Virus record (IMG/VR): IMGVR_UViG_3300047546_001245
Location: 1 to 36,460 of that record
Length of the DNA stretch: 36,460 nt
Source of the DNA: a virus
Direction: 5' to 3' (one strand)
Of the stretch, positions 4,326 through 34,764 are shown piece by piece. The notes under the pieces are model-generated. The model was given only the letters and a program-made list of their open reading frames with translations. It did no database searches and was not told where the DNA came from. Position 1 is the first letter of the stretch; every line of letters begins with the position of its first letter. Position numbers and translations under genes: made by a program.

Positions 4326-5159
4326 CTAACCGAAAGCTGCACTTCTGAACGGATCTTCGACTTGCCCAGCGCGACGGTACTCTTTTGCGGCGGTAGCTGC
4401 TGCTTTAGCTTTTTGCGGATCAAACTCAGATTGATAAGTTTCAATACCCTTTTGATCATCAGCAGTAGCAGAAGCAACTTCAATTGCTTTTTCTTCTGTT
4501 TGTGAAAGTCCTGGCCCGGTTTGTGGTGAGCGACCAAAAGGATTTTGAATCATATAACCTTCTCCTGGACGCCAATTAGAACCAGGGGTTTGCAATGGAA
4601 TTATGTTGCCGGGATGATAGGTTCCAGGATTGCGATCCATGCCCCGAGGACCTACTGGCAGAGCTTGTGCAATATCTTCGCCACGGGGACCGGTTGATGC
4701 AGTTTTTAAAACACTGTTTAATAAAACCTTACCTGGATCAACGTATGGCACATATTGCTTCATTACCGGGTCATATTTGATTCGTGTAAATTGACCCTTA
4801 AGTTCTTCAACAGGCTTTACTTGTGCAATTTCTTGAGACTGCATAAACATTTCTTTTGATTCAGGGAAAGAGGTTTCGGTCTCTGATTCAGACCAGTCAA
4901 CAGCTTCGCCTTTTGCTTGATCAAGTAATTTATTTTGAAACTCTGCAATTTTTATATCAGCTGATTGTTCAACAGAAGGAGAAGCAACCGTTGGTTCCGT
5001 TAAAGAAATGAAATTTTTATCGTAAGCTAAACCGGGAAATTTTCTTAACGCTTCTTCCTGAGAAACTGTATAGCTTCCAGTGGGAGTTAACCCGACGACA
5101 CTGCTGGCCCAGAACTCTGGGCGCTCCATGCCTCCAGGATATCTCAGAATTTTAATCAC
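4326..5159 (-). CDS. hypothetical protein, probably virion-associated
   Basis: This 277-residue protein has no family I recognise. It begins MIKILRYPGGMERPEFWASS, has a polar, proline-rich middle (QTPGSNWRPGEGYMIQNPFG near residues 189-208) and an Ala/Lys-rich helix near the end (PQKAKAAATAAKEYRRAG). There is no signal peptide or membrane segment. It lies directly upstream of the terminase in the same transcription unit with a 28-bp gap. A structural or packaging accessory role is inferred from position only. Confidence 0.7.
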   Translation of the reverse strand: MIKILRYPGGMERPEFWASSVVGLTPTGSYTVSQEEALRKFPGLAYDKNFISLTEPTVASPSVEQSADIKIAEFQNKLLDQAKGEAVDWSESETETSFPESKEMFMQSQEIAQVKPVEELKGQFTRIKYDPVMKQYVPYVDPGKVLLNSVLKTASTGPRGEDIAQALPVGPRGMDRNPGTYHPGNIIPLQTPGSNWRPGEGYMIQNPFGRSPQTGPGLSQTEEKAIEVASATADDQKGIETYQSEFDPQKAKAAATAAKEYRRAGQVEDPFRSAAFG

Positions 5160-17140: not shown

Positions 17141-17231
17141 TACTCAAACCTGGGGTGGTATCACCCACGTCCTGAGTACGCAAAGCGTAGCAAAATTTAA
17201 TGGATTGACTTTGATCTATCTAAGTCAATCC
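17141..17231 (+). ncRNA. structured leader with several hairpins
   Basis: TACTCA (17141-17146) can pair with TGAGTA (17173-17178) around an inner hairpin GGGTG/CACCC (17153-17166). TACGC-AAA-GCGTA (17177-17189) competes with that outer stem. A 10-bp perfect hairpin GGATTGACTT/AAGTCAATCC occupies 17202-17231. The region lies between a helix-turn-helix gene and the gene at 17283. Confidence 0.55.
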
Positions 17232-17244
17232 TTGCTACCTTCGG

Positions 17245-17260
17245 TGACGTTAAACTGCTC
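17245..17260 (+). repeat. degenerate copy of the pseudoknot leader
   Basis: TGACGTTAAACTGCTC is identical to the right half of the pseudoknot at 19628-19654. The upstream TCCTGAGCA is missing, so neither stem can form as in the other copies. The bases before it (TTGCTA, CCTTCG) also resemble that copy, which suggests deletion in a once complete element. Confidence 0.6.
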
Positions 17261-17282
17261 AATTCAATTATCAACTCAGATC

Positions 17283-17905: not shown

Positions 17906-18172
17906 ATGAATGAATACACACTTATTGAAAACATTCTCAATGAACTCAAAGGAGTTGTCCAACGAGAAGACAAGCGTCATGAAATGGATTGTCATCTGAC
18001 TCCATCCATGCTTGCTCTGTTGGAAGGAGAGATCATTCCTCTGCTTGAGAATGAACTCGACTATGACCCAACTCCTCAACATCTCTATGACAATAACGGT
18101 GGTGAACCAGTGATGTTAGCAGGTGAAATTCATCATGCTGCATGGGTTCAACACCAAGCTCTACACAGTTAA
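17906..18172 (+). CDS. hypothetical acidic protein
   Basis: This 88-residue, Glu/Leu-rich helical protein has NILNELKGVVQREDKRHEMD near residues 9-28 and LLEGEIIPLLENELDYDP near 38-55. It ends HHAAWVQHQALHS, with several His. No family recognised. It is the last gene before the structured RNA region at 18173-18398. Confidence 0.65.
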   Translation: MNEYTLIENILNELKGVVQREDKRHEMDCHLTPSMLALLEGEIIPLLENELDYDPTPQHLYDNNGGEPVMLAGEIHHAAWVQHQALHS

Positions 18173-18184
18173 TTAACTGTTAAT

Positions 18185-18239
18185 GCAAAGGGCTGGTTCG
18201 CATTAGAACCTAAGTCTGGTGCGGCCAGACGCCCTTTGC
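18185..18239 (+). ncRNA. three-way-junction RNA
   Basis: The outer stem GCAAAGGGC (18185-18193) pairs perfectly with GCCCTTTGC (18231-18239). Inside are two perfect hairpins: GGTTC/GAACC (18195-18210) and GTCTGG/CCAGAC (18214-18230). Only four bases are unpaired at the junction. No T-run follows, so this is not a plain terminator. Confidence 0.72.
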
Positions 18240-18249
18240 TTCATCTCCG

Positions 18250-18363
18250 GTGGTTGCCTGCCAACCAACGGAATCCCTTAAACAAGCCACTGGCCAGTGG
18301 GTCTCTGCAGGAGACTCGCTCATTGTAACTCAGTTGCAATGTCCATGGCCGGTGCTTGACATC
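18250..18363 (+). ncRNA. run of further hairpins before the 18399 gene
   Basis: Consecutive pairings after the three-way junction include TGGTTG/CAACCA, the palindrome CCACTGGCCAGTGG, GTCTC-TGCAG-GAGAC, and CATTGTAAC/GTTGCAATG with loop TCA. ATGTC/GACAT is an alternative to part of the last stem. No gene fits in this stretch. Confidence 0.55.
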
Positions 18364-18398
18364 TCTGATAGACTCCAACTTCCATCACACTTCAACTC

Positions 18399-18617
18399 AT
18401 GTCCAAACTCAACGATGCACCCAAGCCACGCATCCCTGATGCAGTGGACTCCCAAAGGCTGCAGGCAATGCAAATAGTTGCCAAGATGAAAGAATCTGCC
18501 GACAAATACGGCATCGGTTTTGTCGGTGGATTCGTCACACCAGACGGTGAAAAGTTTGTGATGTCCAATATGTCTGACGAAGAAACTGAAATGCTTCTTC
18601 CTGAGAACCTCCAATGA
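18399..18617 (+). CDS. small soluble protein
   Basis: This 72-residue protein has a helix (DSQRLQAMQIVAKMKESADK, residues 17-36), a Gly-rich strand pair (YGIGFVGGFVTPDGEKFVMS) and an acidic end. The ATG follows CTTCAACTC. The stop overlaps the next start by ATGA, so the genes are coupled. No family recognised. Confidence 0.7.
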   Translation: MSKLNDAPKPRIPDAVDSQRLQAMQIVAKMKESADKYGIGFVGGFVTPDGEKFVMSNMSDEETEMLLPENLQ

Positions 18618-19590: not shown

Positions 19591-19627
19591 TGATTGGCTT
19601 ATTGCCTAAATCAATTTGCTAATCCTT

Positions 19628-19654
19628 CGTCCTGAGCATGACGTTAAACTGCTC
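19628..19654 (+). ncRNA. H-type pseudoknot leader, copy 1
   Basis: Stem 1 is CGTC (19628-19631) with GACG (19640-19643). Stem 2 is GAGCA (19634-19638) with TGCTC (19650-19654). Loop 3 is TTAAAC. Loop lengths of 2, 1 and 6 are suitable for a classical H-type pseudoknot. It ends 29 bases before the ATG of the PcfJ-like gene. Confidence 0.75.
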
Positions 19655-19683
19655 AACACTACGAACTCAACTCTGAACTCACC

Positions 19684-21682: not shown

Positions 21683-21895
21683 GTGACGGACTACACAGAC
21701 GATCAACTCCTTGCCATGGCACTTGGCAACATCGGTGATTTTCTCCATGACAATTCACCGCATTACGTGTTGATTGAAAATGATCCTCGCAATGAGGATG
21801 ACTACGACACATGGAGTTACGGTACTGAGCCGTTACCCCATGATCACACTTGGCGTTCAATGTCAATTGATGTAAGTCCAAGTGAGCCCGAGTAG
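21683..21895 (+). CDS. small acidic protein ending inside a tRNA gene
   Basis: This 70-residue protein starts at GTG 21683. It is acidic (NDPRNEDDYDTWSYGTEPLP) and ends SPSEPE. The last codons and the stop TAG (21893-21895) lie in the first ten bases of the tRNA-Leu gene, so the 5' acceptor strand of the tRNA doubles as coding sequence. The arrangement repeats that of the three tRNA-like elements at 14.6-15.3 kb. Confidence 0.65.
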   Translation: MTDYTDDQLLAMALGNIGDFLHDNSPHYVLIENDPRNEDDYDTWSYGTEPLPHDHTWRSMSIDVSPSEPE

Positions 21896-22408: not shown

Positions 22409-22738
22409 ATGGATTCATCAACTAAATCACAAGCAGTTGATCTCAACCTCGTTGATCAAATGTATGACTTAATTCCAGAATGGACATGGAATTTAGTTAA
22501 AGATCATCTTGTCAATTTATTGGTAGACATTATGCCTACAACAATACTTGAACGATTGACGGGTGATCCAACAGGTGATGAACGTGCACTGGAAATCCTT
22601 GATGATTACTACAAATCATCTGATATGAACAAAGAACTGCTCATTGATTCATTTAAAATCTTGGGCTCTGAACAAACAGCTTATGCATTAGATTCTCTTC
22701 AGCTCAACAAAATTTCCAACCCAAACTCCAATGACTGA
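22409..22738 (+). CDS. hypothetical helical protein
   Basis: This 109-residue acidic, helical protein has MYDLIPEWTWNLVKDHLVNL (residues 18-37) and RALEILDDYYKSSDMNKELL (about 59-78). It ends NPNSND. Its final codons AAT GAC TGA contain the ATG of the next gene, the same stop-start junction used throughout the following cluster. No family recognised. Confidence 0.7.
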   Translation: MDSSTKSQAVDLNLVDQMYDLIPEWTWNLVKDHLVNLLVDIMPTTILERLTGDPTGDERALEILDDYYKSSDMNKELLIDSFKILGSEQTAYALDSLQLNKISNPNSND

Positions 22739-23075
22739 TCATCTGATTACTATTCCAGAAGAACTAATTGACTTATGGGTGTCTCAATTCAATTCCCATA
22801 CTGATGAAGAAGTATTTACTAATATTGCCCAATGGGCTGCAGACCAGGAGTTGGAGGCGTGCTGCGAGTGGCTTGCTTCCTTGCCAAACAACTGGACATC
22901 GACTGCCCTTAAACGTGTTTCCGACCTCCGCGCCGTTCGCCGCCCCAAGCCGCCGAGCTTGAAGGAGCAGGCGTTAGCAGCATTGAAACGTCAAAGGACA
23001 AGATCAGTCCCGTCAATGGTTTCATTTGAAGATTGCGAAACCATCCGTCGCGCCCTGGAGCAACTCGATGACTGA
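22731..23075 (+). CDS. cassette family protein 1 (DQELEAC ... RRALEQLDD)
   Basis: This 114-residue protein belongs to a family with five members in this window. Shared blocks are WAADQELEACCEWL (residues 33-46), the linker RRPKPPSLKEQAL (about 68-80) and the end IRRALEQLDD. The family is one I have seen in cyanophages and picocyanobacteria without known function. The N-terminus is acidic and gene-specific. Start and stop overlap the neighbouring genes by 8 bp. Confidence 0.75.
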   Translation: MTDHLITIPEELIDLWVSQFNSHTDEEVFTNIAQWAADQELEACCEWLASLPNNWTSTALKRVSDLRAVRRPKPPSLKEQALAALKRQRTRSVPSMVSFEDCETIRRALEQLDD

Positions 23076-23319
23076 CTTTCGAGTGCTGTGCGCTGAGCTT
23101 GTTGACGAGCTTGAAGACTGGATTGCTTACGGCGATGAGGCCGACTGTGCCGATGCACATGCGGTTGTAGACCGCGCCCGAGCCGCCCTGTCCCAGCCCG
23201 AGCCGCATAACCTAAAAAAGCAGGCGCTAAGTGATCTCACTCACGCCTACAACGCAGACAAGATTGACGACACGACGTTTGAAAACCTCCGCCGCGCATT
23301 GGAGCAACTCGATGACTAA
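23068..23319 (+). CDS. cassette family protein 2
   Basis: This is an 83-residue product from ATG 23068 inside the previous gene's last codons. It lacks the DQELEAC block but keeps a shortened linker (NLKKQALSDL) and the ending LRRALEQLDD. The first half (CAELVDELEDWIAYGDEADC) is acidic and helical, and DRARAALSQPEP marks the middle. Base composition is richer in G and C than the flanking genes. It is probably a recombined or truncated family member. Confidence 0.7.
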   Translation: MTDFRVLCAELVDELEDWIAYGDEADCADAHAVVDRARAALSQPEPHNLKKQALSDLTHAYNADKIDDTTFENLRRALEQLDD

Positions 23320-23632
23320 CAATCAACAACATCCCATCACCCCACCGCCAAAGCTAATGAAGGAGTGGCTTGAAGAGTTGGATACGTCTGCTCCCCAAGA
23401 TGTGCTGCTGGCCGTTGTTCAATGGGGCGCCGACCAGGAGCTGGAGGCATGTGCTCAATGGGTGGATTGGCGTTGGTCGGGAATCAAAAGCAGGGAACTC
23501 CGCGCCGCCAGACGCCCCAAACCTCCGAGCTTGAAGGAGCAGGCGCTGGAGGAACTAGCTGAATGGGAGAACGTTATGGACATTGCACCCGATAGCCCCA
23601 TCCGCCGCGCCCTGGAGCAACTCGATGACTAA
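23312..23632 (+). CDS. cassette family protein 3
   Basis: A 106-residue product from ATG 23312 (MTNNQQHPITPPPKLMKEWL). It has the complete pattern: QWGADQELEACAQWV (about residues 39-53), RRPKPPSLKEQAL, and IRRALEQLDD at the end. The N-terminus closely matches that of the distant copy at 33327 (TNQQQHPIAPPPELVEKW), which shows that cassettes move within the genome or between related phages. Confidence 0.75.
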   Translation: MTNNQQHPITPPPKLMKEWLEELDTSAPQDVLLAVVQWGADQELEACAQWVDWRWSGIKSRELRAARRPKPPSLKEQALEELAEWENVMDIAPDSPIRRALEQLDD

Positions 23633-24017
23633 ACAAATTAACGGTGACAAGTTGTTTGTTATTGATCATCATCCTGCTATTCCACCTTCTGATTTATTAA
23701 AGAAGTGGGAAGATGCCTGGTTTGATGAAGAAGAACATGCTGATGTTCTATTGATCCAGGCATTTCAAGCAGGAGCTGACCAGGAGTTAGAGGCGTGTAT
23801 TGATTGGCTTGCCAATGCACGCAACCATTCTCTTGATTGGGACGAAGCTACTTACTTCTCTGCCAACCTCCGCACTGCTCGCCGTCCTAAGTTGCAGAGC
23901 TTAAAAGAACGAGCGTTGGAACTAGCAAAACCACCAGGAACAGAAGGTGCTTATGTCACGTTTGGTCCTGAAGAACTTGCACTTATTCGCCGTGCACTAG
24001 AGCAACTTAATGACTGA
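23625..24017 (+). CDS. cassette family protein 4
   Basis: This 130-residue product starts at ATG 23625. It carries AGADQELEACIDWLANAR (about residues 47-64), RRPKLQSLKERAL and the end IRRALEQLND. Codon use is more AT-rich than in the preceding two members, so it has probably been in the genome longer. Its stop overlaps the next ATG by 8 bp. Confidence 0.75.
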   Translation: MTKQINGDKLFVIDHHPAIPPSDLLKKWEDAWFDEEEHADVLLIQAFQAGADQELEACIDWLANARNHSLDWDEATYFSANLRTARRPKLQSLKERALELAKPPGTEGAYVTFGPEELALIRRALEQLND

Positions 24018-25999: not shown

Positions 26000-26117
26000 C
26001 GTTGATCCACAAGATAAATAATCAGTGCTTTGTTCATTGACTTTACTTTCAATAACAAAATGCTAATTCACTGTGTGGATCCAAGTCGTTCAGCTGGTAA
26101 CATAACGGCAATCTCCC
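26000..26117. other. intergenic stretch without a clear gene
   Basis: This is AT-rich DNA between the terminator and the second pseudoknot. A TTGACT-like -35 occurs near 26037 but has no convincing -10 at the right distance. The segment GTTCAGCTGGTAACATAACG resembles a tRNA D arm, but no other tRNA part follows. A promoter for the GP88-like gene probably lies here because a terminator precedes it. Confidence 0.4.
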
Positions 26118-26143
26118 TGTCCTAAGCACGACATTAAACTGCC
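26118..26143 (+). ncRNA. H-type pseudoknot leader, copy 2
   Basis: Stem 1 is TGTC (26118-26121) with GACA (26130-26133), a compensated change from CGTC/GACG. Stem 2 is short here: GCA (26126-26128) with TGC (26140-26142). Loop 3 TTAAAC is unchanged. It lies 62 bases before the GP88-like start. Confidence 0.6.
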
Positions 26144-26204
26144 AATCACATATAAGTTTTACTTATGTGCTGGTGTCAATTCAACTCAACTCAACTGCAC
26201 TCCA

Positions 26205-29387: not shown

Positions 29388-29633
29388 ATGACAACTAAAC
29401 GCAAGCCAACTCTTAAACAATTGTTTACTGCCTGGAAAAAATATGAAAAGAAATCTGAAAAAATACGGCAAGAAAAATGGAGGCTTGAATCAATAGCAAA
29501 AGAAATTGGTTATAGCACTGAATTAATAAATGATGGTGAATATATTTATCGAATTACAATTACAAATTACTGCGGTTCTCCGTACAAAGTTGAACGTATT
29601 GCTAAGGCAGATGAATTAAACAATATTAAGTAA
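29388..29633 (+). CDS. small Lys-rich protein
   Basis: This 81-residue basic protein has a helix (FTAWKKYEKKSEKIRQEKWR, residues 13-32) and a beta-like C-terminal part (EYIYRITITNYCGSPYKVER). Strongly AT-rich codons with several TTA and ATA. It precedes the third pseudoknot. Unknown function; DNA contact is possible from charge. Confidence 0.65.
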   Translation: MTTKRKPTLKQLFTAWKKYEKKSEKIRQEKWRLESIAKEIGYSTELINDGEYIYRITITNYCGSPYKVERIAKADELNNIK

Positions 29634-29640
29634 TTGTTTT

Positions 29641-29667
29641 TGTCCTAGGCATGACATTAAACTGTCT
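29641..29667 (+). ncRNA. H-type pseudoknot leader, copy 3
   Basis: Stem 1 is TGTC (29641-29644) with GACA (29653-29656). Stem 2 is AGGCA (29647-29651) with TGTCT (29663-29667), five pairs including one G-T. Loop 3 is TTAAAC. The ATG of the SSB-like gene lies 20 bases downstream. Confidence 0.75.
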
Positions 29668-29687
29668 TTCACTACACTTCTGTACCC

Positions 29688-32376: not shown

Positions 32377-33330
32377 ATGTCAACGCAAACGCAGGCGTCG
32401 CTCAACACGGCGCAACAATCGATTTACTCACGTTCAAACATCCGGCGTGCGTTCCAGGACTTTGATGATACGGATGTCGCCGCAATTAATTTGCGAGATG
32501 ATTCTTGCATTGTGGTGTATCGCGATGGTTGTGAGCGTGTGTTCCCAAAGCAATTAATCAAAGATGCCTTTGTTGCTTACACGCATCGCCTTAAAGATTT
32601 CTTTTCTTACTTAGGACCTAACTACCGTGGCCCATCCATTTGGCACAACAACTCTTACGTCTTATTCAAAGGCTGGTGTTATCAACATGCTCTCGGGCAC
32701 TTGTCCTCCAATGCTCATCTGCAAGCGGCGTGGGCAGACAAGTTCATTCACCTCAATGAAGCTGAAAAACTTAAAGCTTTATTGCAATCGGATCAAACTG
32801 ATCTTGGTTATCTCGTTGCTCCAGATGGCTTTAGATATGTGCACTCGCCTGAGCTGGGTTCTTCTTTTGATGATGAGGAGAATGATACGGCTGATGTACA
32901 CAAAACTCCGGAGCCTACGCCGTATTGTTCCTGTGGTTCATTCCAAAGACAACTGAATAATCTTGCTGATTTCCAGCAGGAAATCGCTGGTTACAAACCC
33001 TGGTGTATTCATTTGACTTGGTTCAAGAAGTACAGGGATTTGTTATCAGAAAGAGCTCGTGTCCGTTCGGAATCTCGTGGTCAAGCACCTGAGAAATGTG
33101 TGGCATGGTGGTACGCACCGCCTTCTGATCACACAGGGGATGGACGTTTTGTGTTGCTGCATACCAAGTCAGGGGCTCAAGCTCCGTTGACTCATTGGAA
33201 ACTCTACAAACCAAGTGAGGTATTTACCAAAGACAATGCATGGGATCTATTTTTTAATATGATGGCTGCAGACTATGTCCCATTTCCTGGGACTGCACTA
33301 CCACAACTTTCATCTTTTGCTAAGAAATGA
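32377..33330 (+). CDS. SWIM-type zinc-finger protein
   Basis: This 317-residue protein contains the SWIM pattern CxC...CxH: C184 and C186 (PYCSCGSFQRQ), then C210 and H212 (KPWCIHLTWF). The N-terminal region has a helix followed by strands (IRRAFQDFDDTDVAAINLRD). The C-terminal part is Trp/Pro rich (CVAWWYAPPSDHTGDGRFVL). SWIM domains bind zinc and mediate DNA or protein contacts. No transposase catalytic core is attached. The last codons overlap the ATG of the next cassette gene (AAATGA). Confidence 0.65.
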   Translation: MSTQTQASLNTAQQSIYSRSNIRRAFQDFDDTDVAAINLRDDSCIVVYRDGCERVFPKQLIKDAFVAYTHRLKDFFSYLGPNYRGPSIWHNNSYVLFKGWCYQHALGHLSSNAHLQAAWADKFIHLNEAEKLKALLQSDQTDLGYLVAPDGFRYVHSPELGSSFDDEENDTADVHKTPEPTPYCSCGSFQRQLNNLADFQQEIAGYKPWCIHLTWFKKYRDLLSERARVRSESRGQAPEKCVAWWYAPPSDHTGDGRFVLLHTKSGAQAPLTHWKLYKPSEVFTKDNAWDLFFNMMAADYVPFPGTALPQLSSFAKK

Positions 33331-33728
33331 CTAATCAACAACAACACCCCATTGCCCCACCGCCGGAGCTGGTTGAAAAGTGGGCAAATGATTCGGTTCC
33401 CATGAGGGCCAATGCAACAGCCCGAGACTGGGAGATTGTTTTTGCCACCCGAGCCGCTCAATGGGGCGCCGACCAGGAGCTGGAGGCGTGCTGTAAGTGG
33501 CTACGCGAAGCCAAAAATCATGGTCTTGGTTATGAGTACGGGCAGGAGCTTGCCGACAGGTATCGCGCCGCCCGCCGCCCATCTCCTAAGCCACCAAGCG
33601 CTGTTGCGCAAGCAAAAGCATTGATTGAGCGCCACGAGGATGGTTGGTGCCCAAGCGACGCTGAATGGCACGTTATCCAAGAGGGACTGGCCGAAGGACT
33701 CTGTGCACTGGAGCAACTCGATGACTAA
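33327..33728 (+). CDS. cassette family protein 5, distant copy
   Basis: This 133-residue member of the DQELEAC family lies 10 kb from the main cluster. It starts TNQQQHPIAPPPELVEKW, has QWGADQELEACCKWLREA (about residues 45-62), a shortened linker (RRPSPKPPSAVAQAKAL) and the end LCALEQLDD. It is richer in G and C than its neighbours. The same ATGACTAA junction joins it to the following gene. Function unknown. Confidence 0.75.
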   Translation: MTNQQQHPIAPPPELVEKWANDSVPMRANATARDWEIVFATRAAQWGADQELEACCKWLREAKNHGLGYEYGQELADRYRAARRPSPKPPSAVAQAKALIERHEDGWCPSDAEWHVIQEGLAEGLCALEQLDD

Positions 33729-34334: not shown

Positions 34335-34707
34335 AACCTACGGTCTTGAAAAAGATCAGTACAGGAAAATCTTCCTGGAAAAAACTGAGTTCATGGTGGA
34401 TTTATTTCTTGCTATGAAACTAAAAGCCGAAGCAAAAGGCTTGAATCTGGATCATTACGACAACAAATTTGTTTGGAATTTGTTCCAGGAAATTGGCTAC
34501 GGAACAGAAGAAGCTGCTCGCGTTCATCAAAAAAAGAATGATCCAGATGCTTTACTGGAACGCAGCTATGACCCAGTCGGCATGCCCTCCAGGGTAGAGC
34601 TGGCAGAATCTCTTGCTTCTGTCAATGCCAAGGTTGAGTCGCTAACTGATTATGTAGCAACGTTGGTGCAGGCGTTGCAAAATGGATTGACAAAGCTGGT
34701 AGACTAA
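34324..34707 (+). CDS. hypothetical helical protein
   Basis: This is a 127-residue product from ATG 34324 (MAFETYGLEKDQYRKIFLEK). It is mainly helical, with LFLAMKLKAEAKGLNLDHYD and a C-terminal coiled coil (ESLASVNAKVESLTDYVATL) that suggests oligomerisation. It starts inside the preceding frame. No family recognised. A pseudoknot element starts six bases after the stop. Confidence 0.65.
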   Translation: MAFETYGLEKDQYRKIFLEKTEFMVDLFLAMKLKAEAKGLNLDHYDNKFVWNLFQEIGYGTEEAARVHQKKNDPDALLERSYDPVGMPSRVELAESLASVNAKVESLTDYVATLVQALQNGLTKLVD

Positions 34708-34712
34708 TTGCC

Positions 34713-34739
34713 CGTCCTGGGTAAGACGTTAAACTGCCC
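34713..34739 (+). ncRNA. H-type pseudoknot leader, copy 5
   Basis: Stem 1 is CGTC (34713-34716) with GACG (34725-34728). Stem 2 is GGGTA (34719-34723) with TGCCC (34735-34739), compensated relative to copy 1 (GAGCA/TGCTC). Loop 3 is TTAAAC. The next ATG lies 25 bases downstream. Confidence 0.75.
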
Positions 34740-34764
34740 CACACTTTACATTTCATTTCAAATC

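Follow-up and report, generated by a model that had tools for sequence, protein, structure and literature searches.

What does a phage genome keep in a stretch that holds no gene but an unusual density of hairpins? The stretch in question is a 226-nt gap on the plus strand (18173-18398) of a 36,460-base virus record, a fragment of an S-EIV1-like cyanophage that we refer to as the window. The minus strand of the window carries terL and structural genes, while the plus strand encodes thymidylate synthase ThyX, a family A DNA polymerase, an SSB and one tRNA-Leu. The nearest named DNA relative at the gap region is Synechococcus phage S-EIV1, with 73% identity over half of an 801-base query, and when phages and plasmids were searched with the gap by blastn, S-EIV1 was the sole real match. 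An earlier note on this DNA had described the gap as gene-free, and it does lie between two reading frames (Table 1), neither of which matched a Pfam or PHROGs family.

The plus strand RNA of the gap has a minimum free energy of -89.7 kcal/mol, compared with a mean of -61.5 (sd 4.5) for the shuffled controls that the earlier note had proposed; this corresponds to a z of -6.3, with 0 of 200 shuffles as stable. The complement of the gap gave a z of -3.4. A 9-bp outer stem that encloses two hairpins (P1, P2 and P3) was located where the note had placed it, and the further hairpins it had listed in a row follow downstream of this junction as P4, P5, P6 and P7. The stems had been called perfect, which holds for P2 and P3; however, P7, the hairpin of 9 bp with a three-base loop, includes a single T.G pair, and a mismatch interrupts P4 internally. 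No T-run follows the element on the plus strand, again in line with the note, and a search for terminator-like sites on that strand found none within the gap, where nothing qualifies as an intrinsic terminator.

Table 1 Features of the gap and its flanking reading frames, in window coordinates.
Feature	Position	Strand	Description
Upstream neighbour ORF	17906-18172	+	88 aa, without family
Whole element	18173-18374	+	Three-way junction, hairpin series and a promoter-like motif after them; z -6.3; homologous copies present in S-EIV1-like and S-CBS4-like cyanophages
P1 outer stem, 5' strand	18185-18193	+	Pairs with 18231-18239; double changes at 9/9 pairs, 48 sequences
P2 hairpin	18195-18210	+	GGTTC-GCATTA-GAACC; loop GCNNYA with few exceptions; stem covaries freely
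P3 hairpin	18214-18230	+	GTCTGG-TGCGG-CCAGAC; TGCGG loop invariant
P1 outer stem, 3' strand	18231-18239	+	Partner of 18185-18193
P4 hairpin	18247-18271	+	CCTGCC loop, in relatives CCTGAA or CCTTCAA; stem highly variable, 89.9% paired
P5 perfect palindrome	18287-18300	+	CCACT-GGCC-AGTGG; centre GGCC kept, arms covary; 98% paired
P6 hairpin	18301-18315	+	GTCTC-TGCAG-GAGAC; centre mostly TGCA in relatives
P7 hairpin	18321-18341	+	CATTGTAAC-TCA-GTTGCAATG; only in S-EIV1-like relatives
Promoter-like motif	18355-18374	+	CTTGACATCTCTGATAGACT; promoter-like by position only
Downstream neighbour ORF	18399-18617	+	72 aa, without family

S-EIV1-like relatives were collected through the flanking genes and with a pattern taken from the core, and 13 copies, that of S-EIV1 among them, were aligned. 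The loops are kept and the stems change in concert: the P2 stem occurs as GGTTC/GAACC, GGTAC/GTACC, GGGTC/GACCC and GGATC/GATCC, and that of P3 as GTCTGG/CCAGAC, GTCAGG/CCTGAC and GCCTGG/CCAGGC. Compensatory double changes were found at 12 of the 20 junction pairs, amounting to 34 double-change cells against 10.9 in shuffles, and none of 500 shuffles reached the covariation score. Each of the 11 S-EIV1-like contigs searched whole contains exactly one copy of the element. A pattern scan gave one real new copy among the matches listed, at locus L169, the others being mostly chance; a match at L041 was likewise dismissed as chance.

The earlier note had named loss of the stems in homologous gaps among the findings that would refute it. 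A compensated fold is indeed found in relatives, but the junction is present at just 9 of the 80 S-EIV1-like loci reached via the downstream gene. A different hairpin-bearing sequence, built around GGGGAGTACCAGG, fills the gap in 27 of 75 distinct S-EIV1-like slots, and L018 and L169 carry both it and the junction element, which marks the slot as a site of exchange of structured elements. This second structured-looking element has a C-rich arm, GGGGAGTACCAGG and often CTTCTATTAGAT (L018, L003, L005, L022-L030, L169 and others); it sometimes lies beside the junction element and occurs elsewhere in S-EIV1-like contigs too.

A covariance model of the junction trained on the S-EIV1-like copies (R1) gave a single match in a scan of 386 cyanobacterial genomes, on a 7.6-kb contig whose terL and portal genes are related to those of the Synechococcus siphovirus S-CBS4. 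The junction is present in 61 of 80 loci fetched with the terminase of this contig, at 31-48 bits, and in cultured S-CBS4 at 4530-4586, where it was seen by eye and scored E 2.7e-6 with a second model (R2) that had S-CBS4 outside its training set. Each model thus recovered the junction in copies on which it was not trained, R1 in S-CBS4-like phages and R2 in S-CBS4. The S-CBS4-like siphoviruses are a lineage unrelated to the S-EIV1-like phages, with which they share few genes. In sampled cyanobacterial genomes (386, 217 and 388, in overlapping draws, under strict filters that may miss weak copies) no copy was found besides the one on the phage-like contig, so the element looks phage-borne rather than a captured host RNA of wide occurrence. 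A search of S-CBS1, S-CBS3, PSS2, P-SSP7, Syn5, S-SRM01 and Syn19 found no related element, with a lossy filter that missed the true copy of S-CBS4, and a match in S-CBS2, within a structural gene, was chance. Matches to the abiF RNA family (RF03085) at 49-51 bits were seen on the minus strand of two S-CBS4-like contigs (L463, 4496-4532; L464, 3841-3877), the one in L463 adjoining a tRNA match.

Over 48 distinct copies from both lineages, 95.1% of the junction cells are paired and double changes occur at 18 of the 20 junction pairs; fitting the 48-copy alignment to the model biases it towards pairing, yet the controls lie far off, with 311 double-change cells observed against 102.6 +/- 10 in shuffles (0 of 500) and pairing below 50% once the partner is slid by one column. 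The hairpins P4, P5 and P6 are common to both lineages and likewise exceed their shuffles in double-change cells (101 versus 30, 15 versus 3.3 and 16 versus 5.9, respectively), and a further hairpin, P4b, which occurs in L278 and many S-CBS4-like copies, covaries as well. The loops are kept throughout, mostly as GCNNYA in P2, as TGCGG in P3, CCTTCAA or CCTGAA in P4, TGACGAGG in P4b, GGCC in P5 and TGCA in P6. P5 and most copies of P6 are perfect palindromes, and in the few copies where the centre is altered it stays palindromic (GGCC to GGCGCC; TGCA to GGCC or TCGA). Since concerted changes of paired bases occur over at least 48 distinct cyanophage copies from two unrelated lineages, the gap holds a real conserved folded element. 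The suspicion of the earlier note that so many stems are no accident is borne out by compensatory changes in the junction, P4, P4b, P5 and P6, and the comparison of homologous gaps that it had suggested came out strongly positive in these same parts.

An Rfam search had also been suggested. At gathering score, the sole Rfam 15 match anywhere in the window is the tRNA-Leu at 21886; within the gap no family matched even at E=10, and at eight related loci no match overlapped the element up to E=1. A search of the open literature returned no description of it. We regard this conserved folded element, without an Rfam match and present in two little-related cyanophage lineages, as a new family of structured nucleic acids.

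In S-EIV1-like phages small co-directional genes flank the element, which mostly comes after the 88-aa gene but follows the 72-aa gene in L034 and L042; a gene other than the 72-aa one comes after it in L009 and L040. The motif CTTGACANNNCTGRTAGACT stands after the element and just before the next gene in these phages, and in most of them CTTGACATCTCTGATAGACT precedes the next gene, and CTTGACANNNCTGRTAGACT the 72-aa gene, whatever element comes before; in the window, CTTGACANNNCTGRTAGACT occurs at 18355-18374 and again at 34686-34705. In S-CBS4-like phages the element lies downstream of nrd, phosphoesterase and gp005-like genes that run in the same direction, while gp008-gp009-terL converge head-on upon it and no same-strand gene is nearby downstream. 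In every copy for which an upstream protein gene was identified, the plus strand of the element is co-directional with the nearest one. An element that closes a transcription unit at its 3' end, or an RNA that stands alone, would fit both lineages.

Several features of the surrounding DNA were recorded alongside. In 11 S-CBS4-like copies the strand opposite the element carries a tRNA-Leu at a distance of 3-7 nt, and the sequence before the copy of S-CBS4 reads by eye as a minus-strand tRNA-Thr and matches tRNA-Thr genes of other phages. By eye, a tRNA-like remnant adjoins the element upstream, opposite its strand, in L496, L500, L502, L512, L495 and L499; it comprises a T-arm-like hairpin and an acceptor-like stem, apparently without an anticodon arm. 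Directly before the element, at window 18168-18184, there is a GTTAAG/GTTAAT tandem with a spacing of about 11 bp, found also before the element or its substitute in L018, L019, L033, L035, L039, L005 and L003, which on its other strand we take to resemble a Pho box of cyanobacteria. A repeat close to GTCCTRRGCAYGACRTTAAACTGYC occurs five times in the window (17225-17266, 19619-19660, 26109-26150, 29632-29673 and 34704-34745), between genes and shortly ahead of plus strand ones, and S-EIV1 has six related copies on the coding strand of the same module; this repeat is probably a phage promoter or operator. The window also contains two repeat pairs, 14644-14693/15220-15269 (94% over 50 nt), which includes GGGGGATCGAATCCCCC, a hairpin resembling a tRNA T-arm, and 15520-15596/16006-16082 (83% over 77 nt), as well as tandemly repeated small ORFs at 22731-24017 and 33327-33728 with the common motifs DQELEAC and RRALEQLD.

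Taken together, the element is probably a non-coding RNA. The explanation we favour, at a probability of about 0.5, is a trans-acting structured RNA of cyanophages, 3'-terminal or stand-alone, that presents conserved loops to a partner. It would be read from the plus strand, either at the tail of the upstream transcription unit or from a start of its own, and would fold into the three-way junction P1-P3 followed by the hairpins P4, in some copies P4b, P5 and P6. As the stems are interchangeable while the terminal loops (GCATTA, TGCGG, CCTTCAA/CCTGAA, TGACGAGG, GGCC and TGCA) are kept, these loops are presumably what the partner recognises; kept loops on changing stems are the pattern expected if a partner reads the loops. 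With the element carried by two lineages that share few genes, its most likely role is that of a trans-acting scaffold or sequestering RNA and not of a leader for the next gene, and its partner is most likely a host protein or host RNA. A phage partner seems less likely than one from the host, since S-EIV1 and S-CBS4 share few proteins, none of which looks like a dedicated binder, and their replication proteins differ; indeed, when S-EIV1, the window and S-CBS4 were compared, no common phage-encoded binding protein stood out. A shared type of primase was considered and dropped, with a PrimPol-D5 type in S-EIV1 and, in S-CBS4, a RecA-type ATPase that weakly matches a zinc ribbon. The covariation supports a conserved structured element that is no terminator and probably acts in trans; the phage small RNA, protein-binding scaffold or decoy of the earlier note are candidate roles for it. 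Counted against our explanation are the absence of the junction from the slot in most S-EIV1-like phages and the scarcity of G.T pairs; in addition, the opposite-strand tRNA-Leu of the 11 S-CBS4-like copies is compatible with minus-strand transcription there, which speaks against a plus strand RNA.

The wobble evidence bears on whether the fold acts as RNA at all. Among 906 stem cells, 25 are G.T and 27 A.C, whereas tRNAs of the same contigs have G.T at 59 of 854 pairs, in a small control whose finder drops mismatches so that A.C goes uncounted. By parsimony, 105 double changes stand against 10 steps to G.T and 19 to A.C, and within helices changes to A.C outnumber those to G.T by 15 to 5. Wobble pairs this scarce are unusual for RNA, and the excess of A.C over G.T within helices points, if anything, to the other strand. 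This is a hint and not proof, as the tRNA control omits A.C and the copies are related, but with wobble pairs so rare it leaves room for a fold on the other strand or at the level of DNA. In the latter case single-stranded or extruded hairpins would form a site recognised by a host factor for replication priming, nicking or recombination in both lineages. Stems with hardly anything but Watson-Crick pairs, in which G.T is as scarce as A.C and double changes far exceed single steps, would suit such a site, as would the palindromic P5 and P6 with centres that remain palindromic even when changed and the single copy per genome. However, a fold that works as DNA would be indifferent to the direction of transcription, and the element is always co-directional with upstream protein genes. 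The plus strand RNA is also more stable than its complement for the 57-nt core in 44 of 48 copies (mean z for full elements, -2.95 for plus and -2.20 for minus), the primases of the two phages differ as described, and the tRNA control is limited by its size and construction. We consider a DNA-level function a possible but doubtful alternative. Rather improbable, too, is a cis-acting structure at the 3' end of the upstream transcript, serving termination without a U-tract or protecting the mRNA from exonucleases. In both lineages the element does close a set of co-directional genes at its 3' end, lying between convergent units in S-CBS4-like phages and ahead of the promoter-like motif in S-EIV1-like ones; but a roadblock or stabiliser needs no kept loops on freely varying stems, there is no T-run, and the element is found between co-directional genes as well.

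A 5' leader or riboswitch for the 72-aa gene is suggested by the order of the two in the window and by the P5 segment of S-EIV1-like copies, in which 18287-18300 may pair with itself or with 18346-18358. The convergent genes of the S-CBS4-like phages, with no same-strand gene nearby downstream, make a leader unlikely, and it loses further ground with the loci where the element follows the 72-aa gene or precedes another one. The P5 switch is apparently confined to S-EIV1-like copies, its partner segment not being seen in S-CBS4-like ones, and we give a leader only a slight chance. Barely credible is an attachment site copied from the anticodon arm of a host tRNA-Leu. This idea arises from GCATTAGNNCCTAAGTC, which in S-EIV1-like copies is the reverse complement of the tRNA-Leu(UAG) anticodon arm, and from the tRNA-Leu that adjoins the element in many S-CBS4-like phages; the same resemblance was the only lead from a short-pattern scan of genome contigs, whose matches were mostly chance and tRNA-Leu, and it was later rejected. 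In L278 and the S-CBS4-like copies stem and linker have changed, so that the sequence identity is lost while the fold is retained, which largely refutes such a site; furthermore, the annotations of S-EIV1 and S-CBS4 contain no integrase, and no host copy was found in the sampled cyanobacterial genomes.

The trans-acting RNA that we favour can be compared with several known systems. GOLLD, ROOL and OLE are large ornate RNAs, the former two found in phages, and GOLLD often lies near tRNAs. The likeness extends to a structured non-coding nature, conserved loops and occurrence in phages or prophages, but they measure 600-800 nt compared with about 200 nt here, and the element has no Rfam match. 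Sequestering RNAs of the CsrB/RsmZ type share a series of hairpins with conserved loops and variable stems; unlike these, the loops of the element differ between hairpins, a three-way junction stands at its head and there is no repeated binding motif. The packaging RNA of phi29 is also a phage RNA around a three-way junction, one that acts together with its ATPase at the end of the genome, whereas the element is internal in S-EIV1 and lies 14 kb from terL in the window. Integron attC and other folded single-stranded DNA sites are similar in that fold is conserved over sequence and wobble pairs are few; an attC site, however, consists of one imperfect hairpin that has extrahelical bases and a conserved core, in contrast to a three-way junction with separate hairpins in one copy, with no integrase seen in the annotation of S-EIV1 or S-CBS4. 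Finally, comparative genomics has uncovered other structured cyanophage elements: manA RNA in potential 5' UTRs, wcaG RNA, an apparent regulator of exopolysaccharide or high-light genes, and PhotoRC-II RNA, associated with psbA-type genes (PMC2864571). Unlike these, which are linked to metabolic or photosynthesis genes, the element has no leader position and no Rfam match, and it is none of the three, since Rfam would have shown them.

The presence of the element in two cultured phages, S-EIV1 and S-CBS4, makes its function directly testable. That loops are kept on changing stems in phages with few genes in common suggests a shared host target, and the element could thus point to a host process that is manipulated by several cyanophages.
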